DNA of 64,000 bases. Source: Lachnospiraceae oral taxon 107 str. F0167 (GTDB lineage: Bacteria; Bacillota; Clostridia; Lachnospirales; Lachnospiraceae). This document shows positions 1 through 12,907 of this stretch, piece after piece (the first letter of the stretch is position 1; each line of letters opens with the position of its first letter). The DNA lies in assembly GCA_000209465.1 (NCBI GenBank), contig GL890591.1, forward strand, positions 2,177 to 66,176, written 5' to 3'. A model generated the notes under the pieces. The model saw nothing but the letters and a program-made list of their open reading frames with translations, had not been told where the DNA came from and searched no databases. A program made the position numbers and the translations under genes.

Positions 1-2
1 AC

Positions 3-545
3 GACGGATACTGCTGTTCGTATCGGTACAAAGAAAAAGACTGTGGCTGCATGAAAGGAAAGATACAAGCCTTAATACTGGAAGAAATCGTGTCAAAGGA
101 AATTCATCTTTACACCGAGAGCTTTCTTGAGAAAGAGCAGACGAGAATGGTTGAGCAAAGAGTCAGAGAAAGTATTTGTCAGAGCCTGCTTGAGCGAAAG
201 AAAAAGCTGAAAGCGGAACAACAAAAGAATAAAATTTCCAAAATGCAGTGTTATGAAAGGCATAAGCAAGGTATAATAGAGAAAGAAGAATACCTCTCAA
301 AACGGGAATTCCTTACACAAAGAGTAAAGAACATAGAGCAGGAAATATTGATCATAGAGGACAAGATACAAGAAAATACAGCTTTAGGACATCATCTGAA
401 TGTGGATAAACTAAGAGAAGCGGTAGCAAAAGGAGAACTTGTTTTAGACTGGATCAACGAAGTCATAGACAAAATCTATGTTTATGACAAGGATACGGTG
501 GAGATTGTTTGGAAGTTTGAGGAAGGTGATGAAAAAGATGGATAA
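3..545 (+). CDS. Large serine recombinase, C-terminal part (5' end outside window)
   Basis: The frame is open from the left edge to a TAA at 543-545, so only the last ~180 residues are seen. It begins with Cys residues (a CC pair, then CGC 10 residues later) that look like the end of a zinc ribbon. A long charged alpha-helical/coiled-coil stretch follows, with many KK/EE runs, and the end is WINEVIDKIYVYDKDTVEIV. This layout is typical of the C-terminal half of large serine recombinases of the clostridial transposon/integrase type; the catalytic N-terminal domain is not visible. The stop overlaps the start of the next gene, so the two are translationally coupled. Family assignment is firm, the exact subfamily is not. 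Confidence 0.8.
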   Translation, partial: DGYCCSYRYKEKDCGCMKGKIQALILEEIVSKEIHLYTESFLEKEQTRMVEQRVRESICQSLLERKKKLKAEQQKNKISKMQCYERHKQGIIEKEEYLSKREFLTQRVKNIEQEILIIEDKIQENTALGHHLNVDKLREAVAKGELVLDWINEVIDKIYVYDKDTVEIVWKFEEGDEKDG

Positions 546-1581
546 AAAAGACGAGATGATGCTTGTAAATCATGAATCCCTTGTAAAAAAGATTTATATT
601 ATTAGGGGACAGAAAGTTATGCTTGATTTTGAACTGGCAGAGATTTATGGGTATGAAACAAAAGCTTTTAATCAGCAAGTAAAAAGGAATATTGAAAAAT
701 TTGATGAAGATTTTATGTTCCGATTAACTGACGAGGAAGTATCTGAACTTTCAAGGTCACAAAATGTGACCTTGAATAAGAGTGCAGGAAGAGGTAGTAA
801 TATTAAGTACAATCCTCATGCTTTTACCGAGCAGGGAATCTATATGCTGATGACAGTTCTCAAAGGAGAGCTTGCGGTCAAGCAGAGTAAAGCTCTGATT
901 CGTACCTTTAAGAAGATGAAAGACTACATCGTAGAAAATCAAGGGTTGATTGGGAAAAGAGAGTTTTTACAGCTTTCGATGCAGATCACAAGTAATGTTG
1001 TGGAAATGCAGGATTTAAGACGAGATTTAAGAGATGTTGAAGATCAGGTAGCAGAAGTGATGGACACCTTAAATAATGTGGTGCATAAATCCGAACTGTC
1101 TGAACTGATTCTCGACCTTAGCAATCCACAGCTCAAATACGGATTTTTACTTTTGAATGGACAGCCGATCGAAGCAAATCTTGCTTATAAGGACATTTAC
1201 AGCATAGCGAAAAAGAGTATTTATATCGTCGATAACTACATCGGAGTGAAAACTTTGGTCTTGTTAAAAGATGTTCCTTCATCGGTAGAGGTCATTATAT
1301 TCAGTGATAACATCGGCAAAGGACTTCATACCCTTGAATATCAGGATTTTTGTAAGGAGTATCCGTTTAGAAAGATAACATTCCAAAAATCCGGTGGAGA
1401 GTTTCATGACAGATACATTATTATCGACTGGAATACCGAACATCAGCGAATCTATCATTGCGGAGCGTCTTCTAAAGATGCAGGGCAAAGAATTACGAGC
1501 ATAACGGAAGTGGTCGATCAGATGATTTATACAGACCTTATCAATAACCTATTGAAAAATCCGGTGTTGCAGTTAAGATAA
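538..1581 (+). CDS. ORF6N domain / PLD-like protein (copy 1)
   Basis: The N-terminal ~100 residues match the ORF6N DNA-binding domain of phage and mobile-element proteins (KIYIIRGQKVMLDFELAEIY, then the FTEQGIYMLMTVLKG block). A helical linker follows. The C-terminal ~160 residues look like a phospholipase D-type fold: HDRYIIID fits HxK(x4)D with Lys replaced by Arg, followed by GASSKD where PLD proteins have GSxN. The start at 538 (MDKKDEMM) is preferred over the in-frame 478 start because the second copy at 8870 begins there. A slightly earlier ATG at 529 is also possible. The gene overlaps the recombinase by 8 bases and is followed 31 bp later by the element right end. Function is not known; DNA binding plus a PLD-like nuclease-type domain is an inference. 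Confidence 0.75.
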   Translation: MDKKDEMMLVNHESLVKKIYIIRGQKVMLDFELAEIYGYETKAFNQQVKRNIEKFDEDFMFRLTDEEVSELSRSQNVTLNKSAGRGSNIKYNPHAFTEQGIYMLMTVLKGELAVKQSKALIRTFKKMKDYIVENQGLIGKREFLQLSMQITSNVVEMQDLRRDLRDVEDQVAEVMDTLNNVVHKSELSELILDLSNPQLKYGFLLLNGQPIEANLAYKDIYSIAKKSIYIVDNYIGVKTLVLLKDVPSSVEVIIFSDNIGKGLHTLEYQDFCKEYPFRKITFQKSGGEFHDRYIIIDWNTEHQRIYHCGASSKDAGQRITSITEVVDQMIYTDLINNLLKNPVLQLR

Positions 1582-1612: not shown

Positions 1613-1636
1613 GTATCCAATACTTGACACAAGGGT
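1613..1636 (+). other. Right end (half attachment site) of recombinase element, copy 1
   Basis: A 24-nt sequence (GTATCC, 8 nt, ACACAAG, then GGT) that recurs at 8194-8217 (one difference) and 9929-9952 (few differences). In each case it is the last part of a unit, and in two cases it directly abuts the last 11 nt of a CRISPR repeat. Here it abuts an IS1380 transposase fragment instead. It matches, as an imperfect inverted repeat, the left end at 8742-8765. Confidence 0.65.
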
Positions 1637-1817
1637 GATAACGTAATAATGCAGAATCATTGGTCTTAAATGATTGACTGAAAAGTTTATCAATGCCAAG
1701 TTTACTTACGAATTCCTTTATAAGAAGTAAGCCTGTGTCGGAGGATAAATCGCCTCCATCGAAATTAATTTTAATTTTTCTATTGCTTTCAAGTGATAAG
1801 GTGTTTACTTTATTCAT
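1637..1817 (-). pseudogene. IS1380-family transposase, N-terminal fragment
   Basis: Reading the minus strand from an ATG at 1815-1817, with a good AAAGGAG ribosome binding site upstream, gives about 60 residues typical of IS1380 transposases (KINFDGGDLSSDTGLLLIKE, then KLGIDKLF and SFKTNDSA). The match stops near codon 60, exactly where the right end of the recombinase element begins; downstream residues are read from that end and are not transposase. The most economical reading is that the element integrated into an IS1380 copy whose other part lies left of the window. The IS ends are not defined here. Confidence 0.75.
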
Positions 1818-1973
1818 AAAGGGCTCCTTTGTGTAATTTTTGAGTTTTGGCACCTTAATTTTACCATAAATGTACGCTCTTTTTTTCTTCACTCAATAAG
1901 TGAAAGCAATATTTTGTTAAAATATAGTAATTATATGGCTTTCAGCAACTTCTGCGGCTTTGTAATGAATAAT

Positions 1974-2160
1974 CTAGGTTAAGTTAAAAATAATATTGAA
2001 AAATTTGATTATGATTTTAGATTTCAATTCAAAATTAGAGAGATCATCTTTAATAGATGCAAGCTGAATGATAATAACCTTATCTAAAGTGGTAGACTAA
2101 ATGATTCACACGGATTTAGTTAATAAGCTCATAAAAAATTTTATATCGAAATCGAAATAA
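1974..2160 (+). pseudogene. Decayed ORF6N/PLD-like gene (third copy)
   Basis: Two islands of similarity to the intact copies remain. Around 1980-2025 the DNA reads NNIEKFDYDFRF, matching the ORF6N domain. About 2050-2160 reads SSLIDAS, stop, MIITLSKVVD, stop, MIHTDLVNKLIKN, matching the C-terminal end of the intact proteins (SSKDAGQRITSITEVVDQMIYTDLINKLLKN). More than 800 bp between the islands is missing and several stops are present. The copy is dead. It lies directly upstream of the STAND nuclease gene, which may have been inserted between it and its original right end, now at 8194-8217. Confidence 0.75.
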
Positions 2161-2192: not shown

Positions 2193-5100
2193 ATGGTGGT
2201 GAATAATGTGAAATACTCAGAGAAAACAAAACCGGGAATGGCAGATCCTTATTGGTATGAATGGTCCGTGGGTCAGAACTATATTGTAGAAATGTTGAAT
2301 CCAGATAGCCATATTCAGTATGTTGAGTTACAGGCAGATGTTCAATTAGGGTTAGATGATGTAGTAATCACATATAATGATGGCAAAACTAAATTTATTC
2401 AAGTAAAGCATACTAGAGCTAATGACACGATAACTTTTGGGGATCTTGTTTCTGTTGATAGATCTAAAAAGGATAGTAAGTTTCAATGTTCACTGTTAGG
2501 AGAGCTTGCAAGATCCTGGAATTTGGAAAAAGACTTGTATACAGATTCGAAAGTATATATTTTTACAAATAGAAAAGCAGGAAATAGGGCGTCATTGGTT
2601 GGAAAAGAAAGAATTAAAAGGCCGCCTTTGAATGTTTTTTTGGAAGAATTGGAAGAAAAGGTAAGTAAAGCAGAGCAGTTTTCAGATGTAGTTTTTTCTG
2701 ATAATAAGGAAGCTTGGGAAGAATGGTGTAGTCAACTTAAAGATATTGAAAAGGATGAGGACAAGCTTACTTTTTTAAAAAATTTACATGTTGAAACAGA
2801 TCAGGAAAGTTTGGAAGAGCTAGGAAATTCTATAAAAAATAAATTGCAGATATATCTTTCGGTTTCTGAAGAATTTTCGGATATTTTGCTTGGAAAACTT
2901 GATCATGCTCTTAGAGATTGGACTACATCCAAGCGAAAAAACTCAAAAATAACTATAGAGAAATTATATTCTGCGCTATCTATAAAAGAAGAAGTTATTA
3001 ATTATAATCATGATTTAATACCGGCTAATCCTTTTTTTGATAGTAGAAAGGAATTTGTAGATAATATTGAAGCGGGTGTTTTAGAGGGGGATGAAAAAGT
3101 TCTTTATTTATCGGGAGTACCAGGAACAGGAAAAACTAATATTATTAGTAAACTTTGTAGTAAAAAGGATAGTATAGTTGACATCCGTTATTATGCATAC
3201 GAGCCGATTGATCCCAATAAAGAATATTTACCATCCGATGTTTCTGAAAGAGTAAAAAAAGAGGTGTTTTGGGATACATTATTAAATCAATTAAGGGAAT
3301 TGCTAATAGGGAATTTATATAAATATAAAGTACCCGTGTTAAATAGTTTTCTAAAATTGGAAGAAAAGAAAAACGAGTTTTTTAGAATTGCTTCTGAATT
3401 TGCCAAGGATAGAAACAGTATATTCGTACTTGCTATAGATGGATTAGACCATGCTGCTAGAGCTGGTGCAGTAGATGAAACATTTTTACCAACACTTCCT
3501 AATCCAGAATATATTCCAGATAACGTAAAGATTATTATTGCAGGTCAACCAAAAGAACATTATAGAAATTATCCAGATTGGTTGTATGCAGATTCTTATA
3601 ATATTAAAGAATATGAAGTTCCAGATATTCAACCAAGCGATATTGAAACTCTTGTGAATGAAAGATGCGATAATTTTAGTGCTTCTAATAAAATAATTGT
3701 ATCTAATATAATTTGTAGGTATGCAGGGGGAAATACACTGTCTGCTATTTTTGCTGTGCATGAGTCTTTGAATTGTTCTGCCCCTGTATCATTTGAGGAA
3801 AGACTTAAGTCTAGAAAATTAAGTGGCAACATTCAAGAGTATTACAGAACAATATGGGATGATACGAAAAAGAAAATGCAGATACCATTTGTTGATTATA
3901 AAATGGCTGGTGTATTTGCTTTTTTTAATGAACCTATTAGTGCAGACAAACTTAACCTGATTTTTAAAGATGAAGGAATTAGTTGTTCTTCATGGAATAA
4001 CATTCTTAAAGCATTAAGTCCACTTTTGATAGAAAAAAATGGTACATATACTATTCTCCACAATGATATTCGTGTTTTTTTGTCAGGAATTATTGGCAGA
4101 GATCAAGATCATGTAAGAGAGGTATATTCTTGTCTTGTAAATTATTATCTTTCTAAAGAAGAAAAAACTATTGGTTTTTACAGAGATGTTATAAGGTTTT
4201 TGATATCAGCAGGCAGGATACATGAATTCTCAATTGTTTATACTACAGAGTACGTACTAAATGCATATGTTAATGGAATTGATTTATTAGAACTGAATCA
4301 CATTACAGATGAATTAATGCTATATGTCATTGATAAAGATTGTCTTGATTGGCACAAGCTTCTGAGCGTTACTCTTGGATATTTAACTATTGAACAGATA
4401 CGAAAAAGTTCGTATGAGATAGAAGAGGCATCTTTCCGTAAAAGTATAAAGGTTATAAGTATTCATCCTTATGAATGCTATATTACGTCAGTAGATAAGT
4501 GGAATTCTAAAATTCTATTTGAGGTACTTCAATTGATCAATGATTTGTTTGATAATGGCGAAGAATATCGTGGAAAAACTCTATTTTTGAATTGGTTTGG
4601 TGATACCAATATTTCAAAAATTCAAGAAATCTTGAGTACTGAAGATGATGATTATCGCTCAGTTGATGACAAAATCATAGCGGAACTTCTAAGTAAAGCT
4701 TGTGTAAATTTAGAATACTTTGGGATTTTTGAAAATATTTCAAAACTTGAGATAGATAGTTTTTTAAATGATGTAGTTGAAAATATAGAAGGAAAAATAA
4801 TTGAAAATCTTCACGCGGATAAACTGGAAAAGGCTTTAGATTCGTTAGAGGTATTGCTAATAGATCCACTAATAAATGGAATTAAGATTTTGCTTGAGCA
4901 AAATCGTTTTAAAGACATGGAAATGGTTAGAAATTCAATTAAGAAAAGAAGAGCAACTAATGCCATGAGTAGATTGATACTAGCGTTTTTAAAAATCATA
5001 ACGGTAGATGCTGATTGGGATGATGATCAATCTAATCTTATATGGAGTGAAATTGAATCAGTAGAGTTGCCTGATAATATGATTGAAAATTTAATGTCTT

Positions 5101-8078
5101 ATTACAGCATTTATACAATTGTAGCATCATACGCACAAAATAAAAGTAGATCAACGGTTGCCCAAGAAGTAACTAACAAATATATTGAAGCGCATACGCA
5201 TCAGAAACCAAAGTATTTTTTGCTGTACTTTAATGCCGTTGCTTATTTAGGTAAATGGCTTAAATCTAAAAATAAGAAAAAACAGTTACTTGAATCAATA
5301 GATGATCTTAAACTTATAATAGCCAATTTATATTGTAAGAACTGGAATCCGAATGACAGAGATTTTGAAACATCATTTATTAGAGCATTCATTCTTAAGG
5401 CCTATATATTACTTTCAGAAGAAGAAAGTGTTCAATTTCAAGATGCACTAAGAGATTCTTTTGAAAGAGTTTTTGAGGATAATCCTGTGAATCAATTACT
5501 GGATGCTGGAATGTTGTATTACAGAAAAAATTCTGAAAGAATGCAACTATGGATTGATGAATGGATAGACGATAATGGAAGAGTATGGTCAGAACCTATT
5601 GGCGAAAGGAACAGTATAATTAGAAAAATCACGGAAGAAAAAGAAAAATATGATAAGAACAATGATCTTAATCTTAGAGGTGCTGTAGAAAGAGTTAGAT
5701 TTTCTGTTATTGGATTTGCTTCACATAAGGAATACTGTGCAGATTATCTATTAAATTGGTATAACAGTCTTGTGGACAGATTTCCTGAGTATATTTCCAA
5801 GTATGGTGAAATTGTTAAAGAGGTTTCTGATGAAATTGAGGTGCTTGGAGATAATAGGATAGAATATATATTAAACAGTAAAATCTATTCTGACTTTGGA
5901 AGCGAAGGGGCTTCTCGTATTCAAAGTATATTGCAAAATAGATCATTATTTGGTCAATGTATTGCCCGACCATCATATATAATAGATATATTGATTGGAT
6001 ACCTCAAAGATCGTAAATTTGATAAGAAACAACTTCTTACAATTTGGGCAATAGGAATAGGTTTACTTGATTGGAGAAATGAAGATGATCATGCTTCTAT
6101 TTCTGCATTACAAAGATCAATTGAAATTTGTGCAACAAAAAATGGAATCCTTGATATAAAAAAAGATTTGTCAAAGCTTGGACCTGCATATATTGATTTG
6201 TTGACGGATCCGGTGAGGTATATTATTCCAGACAGATGGTGTGATAATGAAAATAATGTTAAAGAATTTGATAATGCAGAAGAAATATTGACACTATATA
6301 TTACAAATAGAAATGAAGATTTACCAGAATATTCTGATGTTATTAAGGCACTAAAGACTCTTTATACTGATAATAAGTTAAGTGAAACTCAAGTTAATCA
6401 ATTACTTGATGTTGAGTTAAGCAAAGACAATTATGGCATTAATCAAAATAGTATCTTAAAATTTATATTTGGTATTGCAAAAGATAATGATATAGATAAA
6501 TTCTTAAGACAATACATTAGAAAGGCTATTGATAATAATAGATTCTATCCATATCTAGATCTACCATATATTATTGGTTGGAGACTTAAATATAATGAAG
6601 AAGAATATATTGTTGAATGTCTGGAAAAATTAATTGAAACTTTCAAATGTTGGATTACAGCCTCCAATCATATTAAAGAACCTGAGTTGAAAGAGGAATA
6701 TGATTATTCTAAATATGTTGATTTTGAGTCAGAAGATGTATTTGATAACTTAATTGAAGTTCTGTTGCTAATGATCATATCGGATGATGCTGATGTTGCA
6801 AGAGTAGCTATTGGAGGTATAGCGGCTATATTACGTGTAGATATTAGTTATATTTCTAAAATAGAGGAATATTGGAATAAATTACATTATCGTGCAAAAG
6901 AATGGTTTCTAATGGTGTATGAATTTGTTTTTGAGTTATGTCCTGAACATCGAGCAAAGATTTATGAATATTTAGTTCTTCATTCGAAAGATGATGATTT
7001 TAATGTAGCACTGTACTCAAAACTACTTTGTGAGAATATTAATCCTGAATATTCAGAAGCTTATTGTATAGAAAAAAAAGACTACTTTTCTTCAATTCCC
7101 ACGAATAGTCAAAAACTATTAATAAAAACACCTAGAAATAACCCATGGATTAATGGATATGAGTGTGTGTTGGAGCAGAAATCTCTAATAGAGAAGCGGT
7201 TCTATATTGATTTGATAGATGTCGAAAGACGTACGGCAGATTATTCGGAGAATATATCAGTTCAAAATTTGTTGCCACTTTTTAGAAGAAAAGCTGGAGG
7301 TTGTAGAGTTGTATGTGATACAGTGAATTTGGCTTTTTTTCGTGTATTGTACAATGACTGGTATTACGGAAGATGGAATGGTGTAGAGGCTGAATTGGCT
7401 AGAATCATTCTTTCTGCTTCTGAACCATTTACATTGTTATTATCTCCTTATAGATGGGAGTGGAATAATGGTAGATTATTTGACAAACCAGAGGATATAG
7501 TTTTATTATCTGAAAAAGAAAGAAATTTTAATATAGGTCAAATATTTAATACAGGATTAGATTCTGATTATATTGTGTTAGCGGGTGCCATTGAGGACTA
7601 TACATATAATCAGCGACTTTTTGGTTATATTTTAGGGTATTTAAATGTGCCAGAAATGAATGAACAATATGCGCTTTTAGAAGTTGAAAGAAATGCACGT
7701 TTATTTTTAACAAAGAGAGAAGACTATATTGAATATCAAAGTCCAAATGTAACAATACATCAGAATGGAATTGAGAGTTTTAAGCAAAGTAACATTATGT
7801 GTGGATTTAGAAAATTAATACTTTCAGCATTAGGATGGAAAACAAAATTTGGGTCAGAGGGATTGGAACTTGTAAATTTAAATGATGAAATGGTAGGAAA
7901 ATTAGAGTGTTTTTATGGATATAAAACGGACATAGGGAATAGATATCCTTCAAATCAACCGTATTTACAGAGATGGATTGTAAATAAAAATAAATTATAT
8001 AAAGCACTTGAAGAATCTAAATGTCCATTTCAGGTGAAAACAGTAATAGGATCTATGATAACGGGATCTAAAGAATAA
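2193..8078 (+). CDS. DUF4297-like nuclease - STAND NTPase, giant antiphage-type protein (AVAST-like)
   Basis: A 1961-residue protein. Residues ~10-230 look like a DUF4297/Cap4-type restriction-fold nuclease: YVELQADVQLGLDDVVI and, about 20 residues later, FIQVKHTR, giving the acidic and QxK positions of a PD-(D/E)xK core. Residues ~308-315 are a Walker A (GVPGTGKT), ~408-416 a Walker B-like AIDGLDHA, and ~446 IIIAGQP is a sensor-like strand. The remaining ~1400 residues are helical, repeat-like and without recognised motifs, as in the sensor arm of antiviral STAND proteins. This fits the DUF4297-STAND type of AVAST (Avs). Such proteins oligomerise on phage proteins and cut DNA; that role is inferred here. 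The start may instead be GTG at 2208, preceded by GGTGGTG. The gene stands alone, is visibly more A+T-rich than the housekeeping genes, and lies between remains of recombinase elements, so recent transfer is likely. Confidence 0.75.
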   Translation: MVVNNVKYSEKTKPGMADPYWYEWSVGQNYIVEMLNPDSHIQYVELQADVQLGLDDVVITYNDGKTKFIQVKHTRANDTITFGDLVSVDRSKKDSKFQCSLLGELARSWNLEKDLYTDSKVYIFTNRKAGNRASLVGKERIKRPPLNVFLEELEEKVSKAEQFSDVVFSDNKEAWEEWCSQLKDIEKDEDKLTFLKNLHVETDQESLEELGNSIKNKLQIYLSVSEEFSDILLGKLDHALRDWTTSKRKNSKITIEKLYSALSIKEEVINYNHDLIPANPFFDSRKEFVDNIEAGVLEGDEKVLYLSGVPGTGKTNIISKLCSKKDSIVDIRYYAYEPIDPNKEYLPSDVSERVKKEVFWDTLLNQLRELLIGNLYKYKVPVLNSFLKLEEKKNEFFRIASEFAKDRNSIFVLAIDGLDHAARAGAVDETFLPTLPNPEYIPDNVKIIIAGQPKEHYRNYPDWLYADSYNIKEYEVPDIQPSDIETLVNERCDNFSASNKIIVSNIICRYAGGNTLSAIFAVHESLNCSAPVSFEERLKSRKLSGNIQEYYRTIWDDTKKKMQIPFVDYKMAGVFAFFNEPISADKLNLIFKDEGISCSSWNNILKALSPLLIEKNGTYTILHNDIRVFLSGIIGRDQDHVREVYSCLVNYYLSKEEKTIGFYRDVIRFLISAGRIHEFSIVYTTEYVLNAYVNGIDLLELNHITDELMLYVIDKDCLDWHKLLSVTLGYLTIEQIRKSSYEIEEASFRKSIKVISIHPYECYITSVDKWNSKILFEVLQLINDLFDNGEEYRGKTLFLNWFGDTNISKIQEILSTEDDDYRSVDDKIIAELLSKACVNLEYFGIFENISKLEIDSFLNDVVENIEGKIIENLHADKLEKALDSLEVLLIDPLINGIKILLEQNRFKDMEMVRNSIKKRRATNAMSRLILAFLKIITVDADWDDDQSNLIWSEIESVELPDNMIENLMSYYSIYTIVASYAQNKSRSTVAQEVTNKYIEAHTHQKPKYFLLYFNAVAYLGKWLKSKNKKKQLLESIDDLKLIIANLYCKNWNPNDRDFETSFIRAFILKAYILLSEEESVQFQDALRDSFERVFEDNPVNQLLDAGMLYYRKNSERMQLWIDEWIDDNGRVWSEPIGERNSIIRKITEEKEKYDKNNDLNLRGAVERVRFSVIGFASHKEYCADYLLNWYNSLVDRFPEYISKYGEIVKEVSDEIEVLGDNRIEYILNSKIYSDFGSEGASRIQSILQNRSLFGQCIARPSYIIDILIGYLKDRKFDKKQLLTIWAIGIGLLDWRNEDDHASISALQRSIEICATKNGILDIKKDLSKLGPAYIDLLTDPVRYIIPDRWCDNENNVKEFDNAEEILTLYITNRNEDLPEYSDVIKALKTLYTDNKLSETQVNQLLDVELSKDNYGINQNSILKFIFGIAKDNDIDKFLRQYIRKAIDNNRFYPYLDLPYIIGWRLKYNEEEYIVECLEKLIETFKCWITASNHIKEPELKEEYDYSKYVDFESEDVFDNLIEVLLLMIISDDADVARVAIGGIAAILRVDISYISKIEEYWNKLHYRAKEWFLMVYEFVFELCPEHRAKIYEYLVLHSKDDDFNVALYSKLLCENINPEYSEAYCIEKKDYFSSIPTNSQKLLIKTPRNNPWINGYECVLEQKSLIEKRFYIDLIDVERRTADYSENISVQNLLPLFRRKAGGCRVVCDTVNLAFFRVLYNDWYYGRWNGVEAELARIILSASEPFTLLLSPYRWEWNNGRLFDKPEDIVLLSEKERNFNIGQIFNTGLDSDYIVLAGAIEDYTYNQRLFGYILGYLNVPEMNEQYALLEVERNARLFLTKREDYIEYQSPNVTIHQNGIESFKQSNIMCGFRKLILSALGWKTKFGSEGLELVNLNDEMVGKLECFYGYKTDIGNRYPSNQPYLQRWIVNKNKLYKALEESKCPFQVKTVIGSMITGSKE

Positions 8079-8193
8079 TAAACAGAAAAATTTTTCTGAA
8101 AATCTTTAATCTATCATATGTTAGTACAAATACGAAAGAAAATACTTGAAATATAATTTAAAAAGAAATTGAGTTTAATATTTAGAAAAATAT
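8079..8193. other. Gene-free stretch before the element right end
   Basis: About 115 A+T-rich bases between the STAND gene stop and the right-end sequence. The last ~40 bases weakly resemble the sequence between the ORF6N-PLD stop codons and their right ends (1582-1612 and 9899-9928). This supports the view that this tail originally belonged to an ORF6N-PLD unit. Confidence 0.4.
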
Positions 8194-8217
8194 GTATCCA
8201 ATACTTGACACAAGCGT
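8194..8217 (+). other. Right end (half attachment site) of a recombinase element, copy 3
   Basis: Nearly identical to 1613-1636 (GTATCC, 8 nt, ACACAAG, CGT) and directly followed by GGAATGTAAAG, the last 11 nt of the CRISPR repeat. It therefore marks a second insertion into a CRISPR repeat at exactly the same position as the one at 8742-9952. Confidence 0.65.
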
Positions 8218-8741
8218 GGAATGTAAAGTAAGCCTAAATCACCGTAAAAATTTACTGTCCATATTAGAATATATCCAGAATGGAATGTAAAGCTTAGATA
8301 CTGATTGCTAAAGCTGGATATAGCTAAATCATTAGAATATATCCAGAATGGAATGTAAAGAAGGTATTTGATAAGAAAAGAAGGGCAAGCAGCTAATTAG
8401 AATATGACCAAAATGGAATGTAAAGTCATCAACTTTGCAGCGTTTGCAGGGTCGAAACACATTAGAATATGACCAAAATGGAATGTAAAGTTAAATATCT
8501 CATCCGTTGTAAAGAATGTTCCGGATTAGAATATGACCAGAATGGAATGTAAAGACTGTAGTGTATCCGCCTCGCCAGTAGTTTGTTCCATTAGAATATG
8601 ACCAAAATGGAATGTAAAGTAGCGTGAAGAATCGAGGCGGAGTAATGCCTTAAATCATTAGAATATAACCAGAATGGAATGTAAAGTCGGATTATAAATT
8701 CATCAGGTCGTTCAGAACTGTCATTAGAATATAACCAGAAT
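8218..8741 (+). CRISPR. CRISPR array fragment 1 (7 full repeats, half repeats at both ends)
   Basis: The 30-nt repeat is ATTAGAATAT-NN-CCA-R-AATGGAATGTAAAG. Full repeats start at 8263, 8331, 8396, 8461, 8525, 8590 and 8657. The left end is the last 11 nt of a repeat (8218-8228) and the right end the first 19 nt (8723-8741). The eight spacers are unique and 34-38 nt long. Positions 11-12 vary (AT, GA, AA) and position 16 is A or G. The 3' part, ATGGAATGTAAA, resembles the Clostridioides difficile I-B repeat as I recall it, which suggests transcription on the + strand. No cas gene, leader or adaptation gene is seen nearby, so the array depends on genes elsewhere or is a stranded piece. Confidence 0.92.
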
Positions 8742-8765
8742 ATGCTTGTGTTCTGATAGGGATAC
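8742..8765 (+). other. Left end (half attachment site) of the inserted unit
   Basis: ATGCTTGTGT, 8 nt, GGGATAC. Compared with the reverse complement of the right end at 8194-8217, 16 of 24 positions agree, concentrated in GCTTGTGT and GGATAC. Right end plus left end joined would form a ~48-bp dyad like a large-serine-recombinase attP. Confidence 0.55.
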
Positions 8766-8869
8766 CGGTATAGTTGTAAATTTTTTAAGGTATCGAGATT
8801 GATTTTGTAAAATCATGATACAATAAAGTATATGAAATGTATTGGAAATTTGAATAAGAGGATAATGAA

Positions 8870-9898
8870 ATGGATAAAAAAGATGAAATGATGTTTGTAA
8901 ATCATGAATCCCTTGTAAAAAAGATTTATATTATTAGGGGACAAAAGGTTATGCTTGACTTTGAATTAGCCGAAATCTATGGATATGAAACGAAAAATTT
9001 TAACAGGCAAGTCAAGAATAATATTGAGAAGTTTGAAGGCGAAGATTTTATGTTCAGGCTCACAGAAGAAGAAATGGATGACTTGAGGTGCAAAATTTTC
9101 ACCTCAAGCTGGGGTGGTACAAGATACCTTCCTTATGCCTTTACCGAACAGGGAATTTATATGCTGATGACTGTATTAAAGGGTGACCTTGCTGTAAGGC
9201 AAAGTAGAGCTTTAGTTCGTACTTTCAAGCAAATGAAAGACTACATTGTAGAAAATCAAGGCTTGATTGGGAAAAGAGAGTTTTTGCAGCTTTCGATGCA
9301 AATCACAAGTAATGTCGTGGAAATGCAGGATTTAAGACGAGATTTAAGAGATGTTGAAGATAAGGTAGCAGGATTAGTGGATAATTTAGGGAATGTTGTA
9401 CATAAATCTGAGCTGTCTGATTTGATTCTCGACCTCAGCAATCCACAGCTCAAATACGGATTTTTACTTTTGAATGGACAGCCGATCGAAGCAAATCTCG
9501 CTTATAAGGACATTTATAGCATAGCGAAAAAGAGCATTTATATCGTAGATAACTACATTGGAGTGAAAACGTTGGTCTTGTTAAAAGATGTTCCTTCATC
9601 GGTAGAGGTCATTATATTCAGTGATAACATCGGCAAAGGACTTCATACCCTTGAATATTGGGATTTTTGTGAGGAATATCCGTTTAGAAAGATAACATTC
9701 CAAAAATCCGTCGGAGAGTTTCATGACAGGTATATTATTATCGACTGGAATACCGAGCATCAGAGAATCTATCATTGTGGAGCGTCTTCCAAAGATGCAG
9801 GACAAAGAATTACGAGCATAACGGAAGTAGTTGATCAGATGATTTACACTGACCTTATCAATAAGCTCTTGAAAAATCCGGTGTTGAAGTTAAAATAG
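8870..9898 (+). CDS. ORF6N domain / PLD-like protein (copy 2)
   Basis: 342 residues, closely similar to copy 1 over the whole length; the C-terminal two thirds are nearly identical, while the ORF6N part around residues 55-95 diverges (for example FTSSWGGTRYLPYAFTEQGI). It has the same HDRYIIID (HxR-x4-D) and GASSKD motifs of a PLD-like domain. The start has GAGGATAATGAA upstream. The divergence is confined to the region expected to lie near the DNA-contacting surface, so the copies may bind different targets (inference). It is the only gene of the unit that splits the CRISPR repeat. The biochemical role is unknown. Confidence 0.78.
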   Translation: MDKKDEMMFVNHESLVKKIYIIRGQKVMLDFELAEIYGYETKNFNRQVKNNIEKFEGEDFMFRLTEEEMDDLRCKIFTSSWGGTRYLPYAFTEQGIYMLMTVLKGDLAVRQSRALVRTFKQMKDYIVENQGLIGKREFLQLSMQITSNVVEMQDLRRDLRDVEDKVAGLVDNLGNVVHKSELSDLILDLSNPQLKYGFLLLNGQPIEANLAYKDIYSIAKKSIYIVDNYIGVKTLVLLKDVPSSVEVIIFSDNIGKGLHTLEYWDFCEEYPFRKITFQKSVGEFHDRYIIIDWNTEHQRIYHCGASSKDAGQRITSITEVVDQMIYTDLINKLLKNPVLKLK

Positions 9899-9928
9899 AA
9901 GTAAAACAGATTGGGAATTTTAAAAAAT

Positions 9929-9952
9929 TTATGCAATACTTGACACAAGGGT
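9929..9952 (+). other. Right end (half attachment site) of the inserted unit
   Basis: Same sequence family as 1613-1636 and 8194-8217 (CAATACTTGACACAAGGGT core), lying 30 bp after the ORF6N-PLD stop and directly before the last 11 nt of the interrupted CRISPR repeat. Confidence 0.65.
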
Positions 9953-10095
9953 GGAATGTAAAGCCATTACGCTCAAATGCAACTGCTGAGGTATTGCATT
10001 AGAATATAACCAGAATGGAATGTAAAGTTGTATACAGTTTTTTCTCCGGATATTTCATACATTTCATTAGAATATGACCAAAATGGAATGTAAAT
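9953..10095 (+). CRISPR. CRISPR array fragment 2 (continuation of fragment 1)
   Basis: It begins with the last 11 nt of a repeat (9953-9963), followed by a 34-nt spacer, a full repeat (9998-10027), a 38-nt spacer and a last full repeat (10066-10095). That last repeat ends in GTAAAT instead of GTAAAG, typical of a terminal leader-distal repeat. With the inserted unit removed, fragments 1 and 2 form one array of 10 full repeats plus the half repeat at 8218. The leader is therefore expected to the left, where the array is cut. Confidence 0.88.
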
Positions 10096-10589: not shown

Positions 10590-11201
10590 ATGGCTACCGC
10601 TTTTACTGATAAAGAAAAAGAAGTAATTAGAAAGAAATTACAAAAAGCTGCAAAGGAATGTCTTCAAAGATATGGGGTTAGGAAAACAACAGTTGACCAA
10701 ATGGTAGAAATGGTTGATATTTCCAAGGGTTCTTTTTATAATTTTTATTCTTCAAAAGAAATGTTGTTTTTTACAGTCTTAGAAGAATATCAAATAGATA
10801 TAATGAATCGTTTGGCAGAGAAATTAGAACAGGAAAATCAAATAAATGCAAATCAGTTTGTACAGTTACTATATGATTTTTATCAGGATTTTCGCTATTC
10901 ATTTGTCTTTAATATATTTAAAAATCACGAAATGGAATTACTCATAAGAAAATTACCGAAAGAAGTAATAACAACTCATCAACTCTTAGATGATAGAATG
11001 GCTGAAAAAATTTTGTCCAGAATCAATATTAGAGAAAGCGTATCGGTAGAAATTGTTTCCGCTTTATTCAGAACGATTGCTATGAGCATATTACACGTCG
11101 AAGAAATCGGCGAAAAACAATTTGATGCGGTATTAAAATTACTAATACAAGGAATTGTTGGACAAATTATTGAGGAGGATAATGGTGAAAGAGGCAATTA
11201 A
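10590..11201 (+). CDS. TetR/AcrR-family transcriptional regulator
   Basis: 203 residues. The N-terminal helix-turn-helix (residues ~15-60) carries the TetR pattern: KECLQRYGVRKTTVDQM followed by DISKGSFYNFYSSKEMLF. The C-terminal helical ligand-binding half is not assignable to a known effector. The start has AGGAGG 5 nt upstream. The 3' end overlaps the ABC ATPase start by 20 bp, so the three genes form one operon. It is probably an autorepressor acting at the dyad at 10542-10571 and relieved by the substrate of the transporter. Confidence 0.9.
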   Translation: MATAFTDKEKEVIRKKLQKAAKECLQRYGVRKTTVDQMVEMVDISKGSFYNFYSSKEMLFFTVLEEYQIDIMNRLAEKLEQENQINANQFVQLLYDFYQDFRYSFVFNIFKNHEMELLIRKLPKEVITTHQLLDDRMAEKILSRINIRESVSVEIVSALFRTIAMSILHVEEIGEKQFDAVLKLLIQGIVGQIIEEDNGERGN

Positions 11202-12123
11202 AACAGTAAATCTTTCTAAAAAATATGGAAAAACTCTTGTTGTTGATGACTTGAATCTATCAATAAGCTCCGGTGAAATAGTAGGTTTTTTAGGGCTGAA
11301 CGGCGCAGGAAAAACAACGACTATGAGAATGCTGTTAGGATTGATAAAACCTACATCAGGAGAATGTTATATCCAAGGAAATAAGATGGACCAATATAAT
11401 GTAGAGGCTCTAAATGAAATAGGTTATATTATTGAAACGCCCTATTCTTATCCTGAATTAACCGTGCAAGAAAATTTAGAAATTGTCAGTACGCTAAGAG
11501 GGATTAGAAATAAAGATGTTATTGATTGGGTAATTGAAAAACTGAAACTGGATCAATATAAAGATAAACAAGTAAAACATCTTTCTTTAGGAAATATTGC
11601 TCGCTTAGGAATTGCAAAAGCAATTATTCATAAACCTGAAATCTTAATCCTTGATGAGCCGACAAATGGACTGGATCCTTTTGGAGTCATTGAAGTGAGA
11701 GAGCTGTTAAAAGAATTAGCAAATAATCTTGGTACAACTGTTCTTATTTCAAGCCATAAGCTGGAAGAGATATCTAAAGTTGCAACAAGAATAGTAATTA
11801 TACATGAGGGTAGACTCATAAGAGAAGTTGAAAGTAAAGAGTTGGATCTGTATTTAGAAAAAAGGTTGTTGGTAAGCGGTCGTAACAACAAGGCTATGAA
11901 AGAAGTATTATCTGCTAAGGGTTATCAAGTGAATTTCAAATCAGATTTAGAAAATAATTCCTGTTACTTAGAACTGATTGATACAAAGTCCGTGGAATCT
12001 TCGGAAGAGATTGCCACATTGCTGGTTAATGCAGGTTATCCACCCAAAATGCTGACTGTTGAAAAAGAAGATTTAGAGAATTATTTTCTTAGAGTACTTA
12101 ATGACTGTAATAGAGGAGCATAG
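11182..12123 (+). CDS. ABC transporter ATP-binding protein (BcrA-like)
   Basis: 313 residues. Walker A is GLNGAGKTTT, the signature region LSLGNIARL (a relaxed form of LSGGQ, common in bacitracin/lantibiotic-type ATPases), Walker B ILILDEPTNGLDP, and the switch His lies in SSHKLEE. The start at 11182 (MVKEAIK) is chosen because GAGGAGG lies 5-6 nt upstream; a longer in-frame start at 11155 has no such site. A ~100-residue C-terminal tail follows the NTPase domain, as in the BcrA/DrrA group. With the next gene it forms an ABC-2 exporter, likely for a peptide antibiotic or other toxic compound (substrate unknown). Confidence 0.9.
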   Translation: MVKEAIKTVNLSKKYGKTLVVDDLNLSISSGEIVGFLGLNGAGKTTTMRMLLGLIKPTSGECYIQGNKMDQYNVEALNEIGYIIETPYSYPELTVQENLEIVSTLRGIRNKDVIDWVIEKLKLDQYKDKQVKHLSLGNIARLGIAKAIIHKPEILILDEPTNGLDPFGVIEVRELLKELANNLGTTVLISSHKLEEISKVATRIVIIHEGRLIREVESKELDLYLEKRLLVSGRNNKAMKEVLSAKGYQVNFKSDLENNSCYLELIDTKSVESSEEIATLLVNAGYPPKMLTVEKEDLENYFLRVLNDCNRGA

Positions 12124-12124
12124 A

Positions 12125-12907
12125 ATGAAAATGAATAAGATCCTTTCTTGTATTTTAATTGAATGGAGAAAGCTGATAAAATCAAAACTTTCGATAATAA
12201 CTGCCTGTACTATCTGTTTCGTTCCTTTTATTGTCGGGATATTTGCAGCTATGATGAAATATCCGGAGTCTTTTAAAAATCTCGGTTTGATTTCTGCAAA
12301 AATGGAGATGATTAGAATAACGGATTGGTCATCATACCTTATGTCCTTATCACAAGTAATTTCTATTGGAGGTTTACTCATTTTTGGATTTACAACATCT
12401 TGGGTTTTTGGTAGAGAATACTCTGATAAAACCATGATAGACTTATTAGTGATTCCGATAAAAAGAGGTACGATTGTATTATCCAAGTTTATAGTTATCG
12501 CTTTATGGAGTTATTTTATATCAATTATTGCGCTTATATTAGGATTGTTAGCCGGCAAATTGATTGGACTTTCAGGTTGGAACTCAATAACCGTTTTCAA
12601 AGGTATATTTACTTTTGCTTATTGTACTACCCTTACTATCTTACTATCTACTCCGGTTGGTTTTTTTGCTTGCTTAGGTCGTGGATATTTATCGCCATTG
12701 GCATTTATCATTTTCACAGTTCTTTTCTCTCAGCTTGGTTCAGCTCTTAATTTGGGTGAATATATTCCATGGTCTATTCCTTCACTCGCAAGTGGTATTA
12801 CGGGAAAAGTGATTTTTAATTTAGGGGGTATAATTAGTTTGTTTGTGGTTAGTATTTCGGGATTTATTTTAACAATAGCTTGGTGGAGATATGCAGACTA
12901 CAATTAG
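12125..12907 (+). CDS. ABC-2 type transporter permease
   Basis: About 260 residues with six hydrophobic segments; the first follows a short basic stretch (EWRKLIKSKLSIITACTICF). It includes the typical ABC-2 segment with WVFGREYSDKTMIDLL after the second helix. AGAGGAGCAT precedes the ATG, one base after the ATPase stop. It is the membrane partner of the upstream ATPase. The gene ends at 12907, followed by transposase debris and a terminator. Confidence 0.85.
   Translation: MKMNKILSCILIEWRKLIKSKLSIITACTICFVPFIVGIFAAMMKYPESFKNLGLISAKMEMIRITDWSSYLMSLSQVISIGGLLIFGFTTSWVFGREYSDKTMIDLLVIPIKRGTIVLSKFIVIALWSYFISIIALILGLLAGKLIGLSGWNSITVFKGIFTFAYCTTLTILLSTPVGFFACLGRGYLSPLAFIIFTVLFSQLGSALNLGEYIPWSIPSLASGITGKVIFNLGGIISLFVVSISGFILTIAWWRYADYN

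Follow-up and report, generated by a model that had tools for sequence, protein, structure and literature searches.

How does a gene come to lie exactly within a single repeat of a clustered regularly interspaced short palindromic repeat (CRISPR) array? The question is raised by a 1,211-bp unit in Lachnospiraceae oral taxon 107 str. F0167, found in a stretch of 64,000 nt (the window: assembly GCA_000209465.1, contig GL890591.1, here C9, positions 2,177 to 66,176 of the forward strand; C5, C7, C14, and C29 are further contigs of this source genome). The unit carries one gene, for a protein with an ORF6N domain and a phospholipase D (PLD)-like part. We consider it very probable that the unit belongs, as a non-autonomous cassette, to a large serine recombinase (LSR) element family and was inserted in trans by a related LSR into a CRISPR repeat that served as the bacterial attachment site (attB). 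The features of the locus, in window positions, are as follows.

8195..8216, + strand: second copy of the right element end, TATCCAATACTTGACACAAGCG, joined directly to 8217-8228, the final 12 nt of the first CRISPR repeat
8263..8686, + strand: upstream of the unit, seven complete CRISPR repeats and their spacers
8723..8741, + strand: left part of the interrupted repeat, 19 nt, ATTAGAATATAACCAGAAT, identical to the first 19 nt of the repeats at 8657 and 9998
8742..9952, + strand: the inserted unit, 1211 bp, a probable non-autonomous LSR-type cassette; a Catonella morbi unit aligns to its bases 4-1211 at 83.7%
8742..8765, + strand: left element end, ATGCTTGTGTTCTGATAGGGATAC, with core TA at 8741-8742, not TG; similar left ends in C29, C5, G005 C22, Catonella, and G057
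8870..9898, + strand: gene for a 342-aa ORF6N + PLD-like protein (ORF6N, E 1.2e-34), phage-defence candidate PDC-S05 (E 8.2e-109)
9930..9951, + strand: right element end, TATGCAATACTTGACACAAGGG
9952..9953, + strand: core dinucleotide TG of the right junction
9953..9963, + strand: right part of the interrupted repeat, 11 nt, GGAATGTAAAG
9998..10095, + strand: downstream of the unit, two complete repeats, of which the last ends in TAAAT

When 8742-9952 is excised, the 19 nt and 11 nt of flanking repeat rejoin into a 30-nt sequence, ATTAGAATATAACCAGAATGGAATGTAAAG, which matches the repeats at 8657 and 9998 at 30/30 nt, variable positions included. The first-pass annotation, made from the letters alone, had proposed an exact insertion inside a repeat and two arrays that were formerly one. 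Both proposals hold: the rejoined repeat is identical to its neighbors, and the spacers on either side of it, 36 and 34 nt, are of normal length. Full repeats of the array start at 8263, 8331, 8396, 8461, 8525, 8590, 8657, 9998, and 10066. The beginning of the array (8199-8228) is another junction between element and repeat, in which the second right-end copy is joined to TGGAATGTAAAG (8217-8228). Since right-end copies stand both there and in the unit, the window array has been struck at least two times.

The same annotation had called the unit mobile, and this was borne out. Its ends turn up again in other genomes and in other places, and the Catonella morbi unit lies at an unrelated site; thus, the insertion is not a matter of chance. 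A copy on contig C22 of G005 aligns to unit bases 2-1184 (86.6%) and has lost its right end, while one in G001 aligns to bases 18-1211 (85.0%) and has a changed left end. However, the unit is not a stand-alone entity. It holds one open reading frame of at least 80 aa, the ORF6N-PLD gene, and encodes no integrase. It is therefore classed as a short non-autonomous derivative of an LSR element family and not as an integrative and conjugative element (ICE).

Element ends at CRISPR repeats and other sites

The right end of the element family reads TATNCAATACTTGACACAAGGG, followed by TG. In the sequence analyzed, with at most 2 mismatches allowed, we found 19 distinct right-end junctions, 7 of them in CRISPR, 4 in IS200 tnpA-like sequence, and 8 elsewhere, a CRISPR share that is not a population estimate because the sample was centered on the genus of the window (one left-end search, moreover, used a CRISPR-specific pattern). 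The last group includes one probable chance match (L201) and one junction common to G002 and G003, counted once. TG begins 17/19 of these junctions. All 7 CRISPR junctions, spread over five genomes, abut the last 12 nt of a repeat. The source genome has the right end in 5 places: three are joined to a CRISPR repeat tail (the unit, the array start at 8195-8228, and C14), one lies inside an IS200 transposase gene (C5; Y1_Tnp), and one stands behind a second ORF6N-PLD gene (copy 1, described below). In G001 (L046), G002 (L102), G005 (L104), and G366 (L101), the right end is directly next to TGGAATGTAAAG, and then come a spacer and more repeats; in G366 what lies downstream is a single degenerate repeat.

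We compared eight left ends, 3 in CRISPR, 3 in tnpA, and 2 elsewhere. The core is TG in 7/8; the exception is the window unit, with TA. The "one shared T" of the first-pass annotation is thus better read as a 2-nt core, TG. After the core come two variable bases and then CTTG in 7/8 (ATTG in C5), which mirrors the CACAAG of the right end. The left ends that cut CRISPR repeats (the window unit, C29, and G366) all do so at the same point. Of all eight left ends, that of G366 diverges most. The 10 CRISPR junctions, 7 right and 3 left, share one dinucleotide and one orientation, with the right end of the element toward the 3' part of the repeat. A single orientation is expected of an asymmetric LSR core. 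The first-pass annotation had asked whether homologous units lie at other sites with different junctions. Other sites do exist, yet the element ends are constant, and the cut in CRISPR falls at the same dinucleotide in 10/10. CRISPR repeats are therefore a frequent landing site, as had been suggested, but not the only one, since IS200 tnpA genes and unrelated sites carry the same ends.

On its right half, the target reads GAATGTAAA[GT] in CRISPR and GAATTGTAAG or GGAATG[TC]AAA at the tnpA-like sites; 7/7 CRISPR right junctions keep the target half TGGAATGTAAA[GT] in the same register. In a weight matrix built from the non-CRISPR sites only, 19 CRISPR sites rank 9-285 of the 12,250 TG sites in five sequences. 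Thus, CRISPR repeats appear to resemble the preferred site of the enzyme and to be aided by their copy number. A special adaptation of the enzyme to CRISPR is possible but unproven.

Two other arrays show what such elements can hold. On C29, the last repeat of an array is cut between CCAGAATG and GGCTTGAG, and past the cut lie genes for ParA, ParB, Bro-N, RepA_N, an IstB-like ATPase, VirD4, TrbL (TrbL_2), a VirB4/TraG P-loop protein, and NlpC/P60. By its gene content this sequence is the putative left part of a conjugative element; the 10 proteins scanned include no relaxase, and the contig ends inside the element, short of its right end and of any integrase gene. On C7, an array begins beside a type I-B cas set (cas6, csx8, cas7, cas5, cas3, cas4, cas1, and cas2). 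The C29 array may continue that of C7, as both contigs end in repeats of the same type. In G366, where both sides are visible on a 2.24-Mb contig, cas genes and an array lead to a half repeat, ~14.7 kb of element, and the other half repeat, and the rejoined repeat is identical to the neighboring one. This element contains an AbiEii gene, IS110, TnpB-type and ATP-binding cassette (ABC) transporter genes, and the tail of an ORF6N-PLD gene; neither Pfam (among the proteins scanned) nor tblastn found an LSR in it. We did not find the left boundaries of the G002 element or of the element on G005 C28.

The tnpA sites hold cassettes as well. The C5 cassette (3.5 kb) carries a cytosine methyltransferase and an AAA ATPase, and that of G094 (~1.6 kb) a SocA/Panacea-type antitoxin. 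An empty site for the C5 cassette is at hand: its joined flanks are colinear with a tnpA copy ~5 kb away in the same genome that is uninterrupted at this place, a comparison copy that is itself imperfect and partly N further on. Rejoining G094 gives no long tnpA frame, and its target was thus a tnpA fragment. The right junction of G057 has only ~20 nt of tnpA-like sequence.

Pattern searches differed in their yield. An 18-nt right-end pattern with 2 mismatches, run against 392 genomes of the order, was noisy (91 matched, and a backward control also gave many). We followed the exact matches, G366, G002, G094, G057, and G000, and a few weaker ones. The weaker matches L105, L106, L108, and L109 look unrelated. 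A longer right-end pattern matched 5 of 391 genomes of the class, but we give credence only to the source genome and G640; the matches L200, L201, and L204 appear accidental, though L201 is included among the 19 junctions. The left-end pattern matched 7 stretches of viral contigs. One of them, L211, is identical to the left end on C29 at 21 of 21 nt; we take it for chance because no LSR of this family is found in its surroundings. The CRISPR-junction pattern had no match in the viral contigs.

Several side observations concern these junctions and arrays. TTGACA, the consensus -35 hexamer, points outward to the target in 16/19 right ends (9940-9945 in the window). In L102 (G002 C8, minus strand), the right end is followed by a long array with >40 near-identical repeats, and upstream, five repeats of the same type are dispersed between other genes, as though further insertions had broken up an older array. 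G001 (L046) and G005 (L104) carry different elements at what is apparently the same CRISPR locus, judged by eye from the similar sequence after the array. We also compared 83 array spacers with all fetched loci. There was no full-length match to any element, and the partial matches outside arrays (10 rows, 20-25 nt) all fall in the loci of other bacteria (ORF6N-PLD relatives or weak pattern hits). The sole full-length match outside arrays is a G001 spacer near the array end (L046 1485-1520, 36 nt) that is 36/36 identical to the type I-B cas7 gene of the source genome (L196 4902-5822, contig C7) at L196 5565-5600. This spacer would be either aimed at the CRISPR system of a relative or self-targeting.

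Recombinase genes and the route of insertion

Longer relatives with the same right end carry LSR genes. In Eubacterium infirmum (L113, L248, G640), three tandem LSR genes are followed by an ORF6N-PLD gene, the right end, and an interrupted IS200 tnpA. Each of the three encodes Resolvase, Recombinase, and zinc-ribbon domains, and the first (internal) one also carries DUF4368. G057 has two such LSR genes with an ORF6N-PLD gene, one of them without the start of its resolvase domain, and the LSR set of Streptobacillus notomytis (L148) is partly broken. This type of LSR is rare in the class sample, being found in 1/391 genomes at E 1e-120. In the plasmid collection, there was no match to the unit and none to LSR2 at E 1e-100.

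The source genome has relatives of the E. infirmum genes in the upstream part of the window.

1..545, + strand: LSR gene, C-terminal part, external member of the triplet; the remainder lies left of the window beside an N stretch
538..1581, + strand: second ORF6N-PLD gene (copy 1), protein 89% identical
1614..1635, + strand: third right element end; the target side reads TGATAACG...
2011..2154, + strand: remnant of an ORF6N-PLD C-terminus, 46% identity, stops inside
2193..8078, + strand: gene for a 1961-aa Avs1b/Lamassu-like protein (weak matches), cargo just left of the second right end

Two serine recombinase genes stand ahead of copy 1, one matching the middle and the other the external member of the E. 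infirmum triplet. The middle gene lacks its start and is split across two frames. The external gene matches E. infirmum LSRe at 90.6% over residues 1-138 and at 75% over residues 335-514, and because an N stretch (L007 1912-2176) lies within it, its intactness cannot be judged. By eye, copy 1 and its recombinase are flanked by two similar stretches (window 1639-1950 and L007 1-290), which are apparently remnants of one insertion sequence (IS) and would suggest an IS-related rearrangement.

These observations are consistent with the following route. The two ends of the unit would be the two halves of the attachment site of the element family (attP; CTTGACACAAGGG-TG-TGCTTGTGTTC). A related conjugative element bearing LSR genes in tandem would supply the recombinase, which would recombine the circular cassette with one CRISPR repeat serving as attB, with exchange at the TG dinucleotide (...CCAGAA-TG-GAATGTAAAG). 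Such an exchange would split the repeat without loss and leave just a 2-nt core in common. The cargo brought in would be a phage-defence candidate gene. We infer that an LSR is the catalyst, that the cassette moves in trans, and that its cargo defends the host.

Several findings weigh against this route. The unit has no LSR gene of its own, and the nearby ones are damaged or unreadable, so that a present-day source of LSR in this strain is not established. The left core of the window unit is TA and not TG. In the weight matrix the CRISPR sites are enriched but do not stand at the top; they rank 19-969 with the right half alone and 263-1834 with the right half and without the tnpA sites. Finally, a matching left half was not found for 5/7 of the CRISPR right junctions, and those could therefore be rearranged.

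The CRISPR repeats may also be incidental to LSR insertion. A multi-targeting LSR with a loose motif would strike arrays for their many tolerable copies, without any adaptation, and this would be compatible with the route above. We regard this explanation as evenly balanced. It fits the 8/19 right junctions that are neither CRISPR nor tnpA-like, the matrix ranking, in which the motif built from other sites has better matches than the CRISPR sites, and the presence in E. infirmum of DUF4368, a domain that the available part of one study ties to multi-targeting LSRs (PMC10083194). However, 7/19 right junctions in CRISPR are a large share for a small part of the genome, and the target half is in register in every one of them. 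At the other extreme, a family of conjugative elements and the defence cassettes that are their satellites could have CRISPR arrays as a genuine docking station. Their recombinase would recognize type I-B repeats by the conserved 3' half (TGGAATGTAAAG) and place the cargo in one orientation, here that of array transcription. Composite immune islands would result, with spacers and mobile defence genes at one locus and possibly on one transcript, and the slot beside the right end would be an exchangeable defence-gene site. We put this forward tentatively, as somewhat doubtful.

Explanations without an LSR fare worse. Our first idea for the 42-nt similarity of 90% between 8187-8228 and 9922-9963, each of which precedes a segment of array, was a duplicated CRISPR leader, as would arise if arrays with similar leaders had met by homologous recombination or array duplication. 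We dropped it once the same sequence appeared at the ends of elements in IS200 tnpA and at other non-CRISPR sites, which makes the similarity a common element end and not a common leader. The sequence between cas2 and the array on C7 also differs from it, and the left flank of the unit is an exact half repeat. We therefore hold leader duplication to be very unlikely. That Cas1-Cas2 or a casposase took up the 1.2-kb unit as a giant spacer is scarcely credible. C7 does carry a type I-B cas set that includes cas1 and cas2. However, integration of the Cas1-Cas2 or casposon type takes place at repeat borders and duplicates the repeat, while here the repeat is cut after base 19 without duplication, and the same ends also lie outside CRISPR. 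A derivative resembling a miniature inverted-repeat transposable element, moved by a DDE or Y1 transposase, would agree with the short inverted end motif (CTTGTGT / ACACAAG) and with the association with IS200 tnpA. It is nevertheless improbable, given a target duplication of at most 2 nt, the single orientation, and the LSR genes in longer relatives with the same right end. Moreover, tnpA is the interrupted target and not the source. IS200/IS605 elements hold a Y1 transposase inside their ends, but the one gene of the unit is ORF6N-PLD, and at C5 the Y1_Tnp gene lies outside the right end.

Cargo of the element family

The first-pass annotation had named the gene of the unit ORF6N-PLD. The ORF6N domain was confirmed, and a PLD-type fold is supported by a structure model with weak matches, but PDC-S05 is the better name. 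The PADLOC model PDC-S05 matches residues 2-335 of 342, and by this match the protein is best described as a phage-defence candidate. The structure model, built from 47 sequences, has a mean predicted local distance difference test score of 67.3; block means are 82-92 for residues 211-300 and 321-342 and ~60 for residues 301-320. Its top structural match, TrmBL2, superposes poorly (root mean square deviation, 19) and is followed by Zucchini, phospholipase D, NucT, and BfiI, with E-values of 0.002 to 0.05. The C-terminal half is thus predicted to have a PLD-type fold, which is likely but not certain. Relatives of the protein (E 1e-60 or better) were found in 10/61 genomes, which include the source genome and all five other genomes of the genus that were searched; phages gave 3 partial matches. 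We also considered a role of the protein as a recombination factor, which is unlikely, with a similar LSR in the fetched flanks of just 5/80 related loci.

Cargo elsewhere in the family was scanned for defence matches in chosen cases, not throughout. The 1961-aa protein of the window matches Avs1b (E 2.1e-11; 41.7 bits against a cut-off of 1500) and LmuA (E 3.9e-9) weakly, and AAA_22 below the cut-off. The element on G005 C28 carries a type I restriction-modification set. On the IMG/VR contig L252, a Lamassu-like pair, PDC-M68A/B (6655-9645), lies between an LSR gene (83% identical) and the right end; this contig is probably an integrative element and not a virus. In G002, the closest identified gene upstream of the right end encodes a DDE transposase, an ABC/FtsX pair lies further away, and the permease had no defence match. 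In G366, ABC transporters are closest to the right end. From these annotations, a defence bias of the cargo appears visible but not universal.

The ORF6N-PLD gene of the unit has the same reading direction as the array, with the leader side taken from the cas-linked array of C7. Between 8080 and 10300 we found no terminator-like sites, against 1.0 in shuffled sequences, and 4 promoter-like sites, against 10.3. With no terminator-like site in this interval, read-through from the array into the ORF6N-PLD gene is conceivable. The unit may have cut off the two distal repeats from their promoter.

Known systems and flanking genes

Staphylococcal cassette chromosome (SCC) elements are LSR-mobilized cassettes with integrase-less derivatives, tandem composites, and restriction-modification cargo; they use ccr genes and insert at the end of rlmH. 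Unlike in SCC, the 11 identified right-junction sites here (11/19) are CRISPR repeats or tnpA-like. CRISPR-associated transposons carry Tn7-like genes together with cas genes in the element, whereas our unit holds a single ORF6N-PLD gene.

A close likeness is to streptococcal ICEs, in which, according to the available part of the report, triplets of serine integrases on Tn1549-, Tn5252-, or TnGBS2-type modules target mutT, traG, and hsdM with 2-8 bp direct repeats (PMC4701971). As in those elements, there are three tandem LSR genes at one end in the E. infirmum relative, genes sometimes lie between triplet and target, genes of a putative conjugation module lie on C29 with RepA_N, and the junction core is very short. 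Unlike here, the words "CRISPR" and "IS200" do not occur in the available text of that report, nor are short cassettes without an integrase the subject of that text. Multi-targeting LSRs use several attB sites per enzyme, and Durrant et al. link them to DUF4368, which one LSR of the triplet shares; "CRISPR array" is absent from the accessible portion of that study (PMC10083194).

Looser precedents place foreign DNA in CRISPR arrays. In Parvimonas micra, an element of ~42 kb in a CRISPR array is traced to prophages, with recombinase, relaxase, type IV secretion system, and NlpC/P60 genes, and a second strain bears a comparable insertion in another CRISPR system (PMC11076991). We set it apart by its description, which in the available part gives no within-repeat junction, recombination site, or defence cassettes. 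In Campylobacter coli, erm(N) is a foreign gene among the repeats of a CRISPR-Cas9 locus and is reported not to be passed on by natural conjugation; the available account describes no recombinase or att site (PMC11823653). Among the papers listed in our searches of the open-licence PubMed Central literature, we recognized no description of CRISPR repeats as serine-recombinase attachment sites or of a defence-cassette family that uses them. Conjugative elements with LSR triplets are thus already known; what seems to be new, these looser precedents aside, is att-site recombination that docks elements with defence cargo at CRISPR repeats.

Arrays are usually viewed as stores of spacers. Our analysis suggests that immune arrays can also be landing sites for mobile immune genes, with the immune memory of the host doubling as a set of dispensable multi-copy landing pads. 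The price of an insertion would be one repeat and perhaps the distal spacers, and the gain further defence genes. If this is true, adaptive and innate bacterial immunity are physically linked, defence islands have a testable route of growth around CRISPR loci, and an LSR with a short target motif is on offer. As a caution, split arrays in assemblies may be insertions rather than two arrays.

Directly beyond the array, at 10590-12907, the window appears by eye to encode a TetR-like regulator, an ABC transporter ATPase, and a permease.

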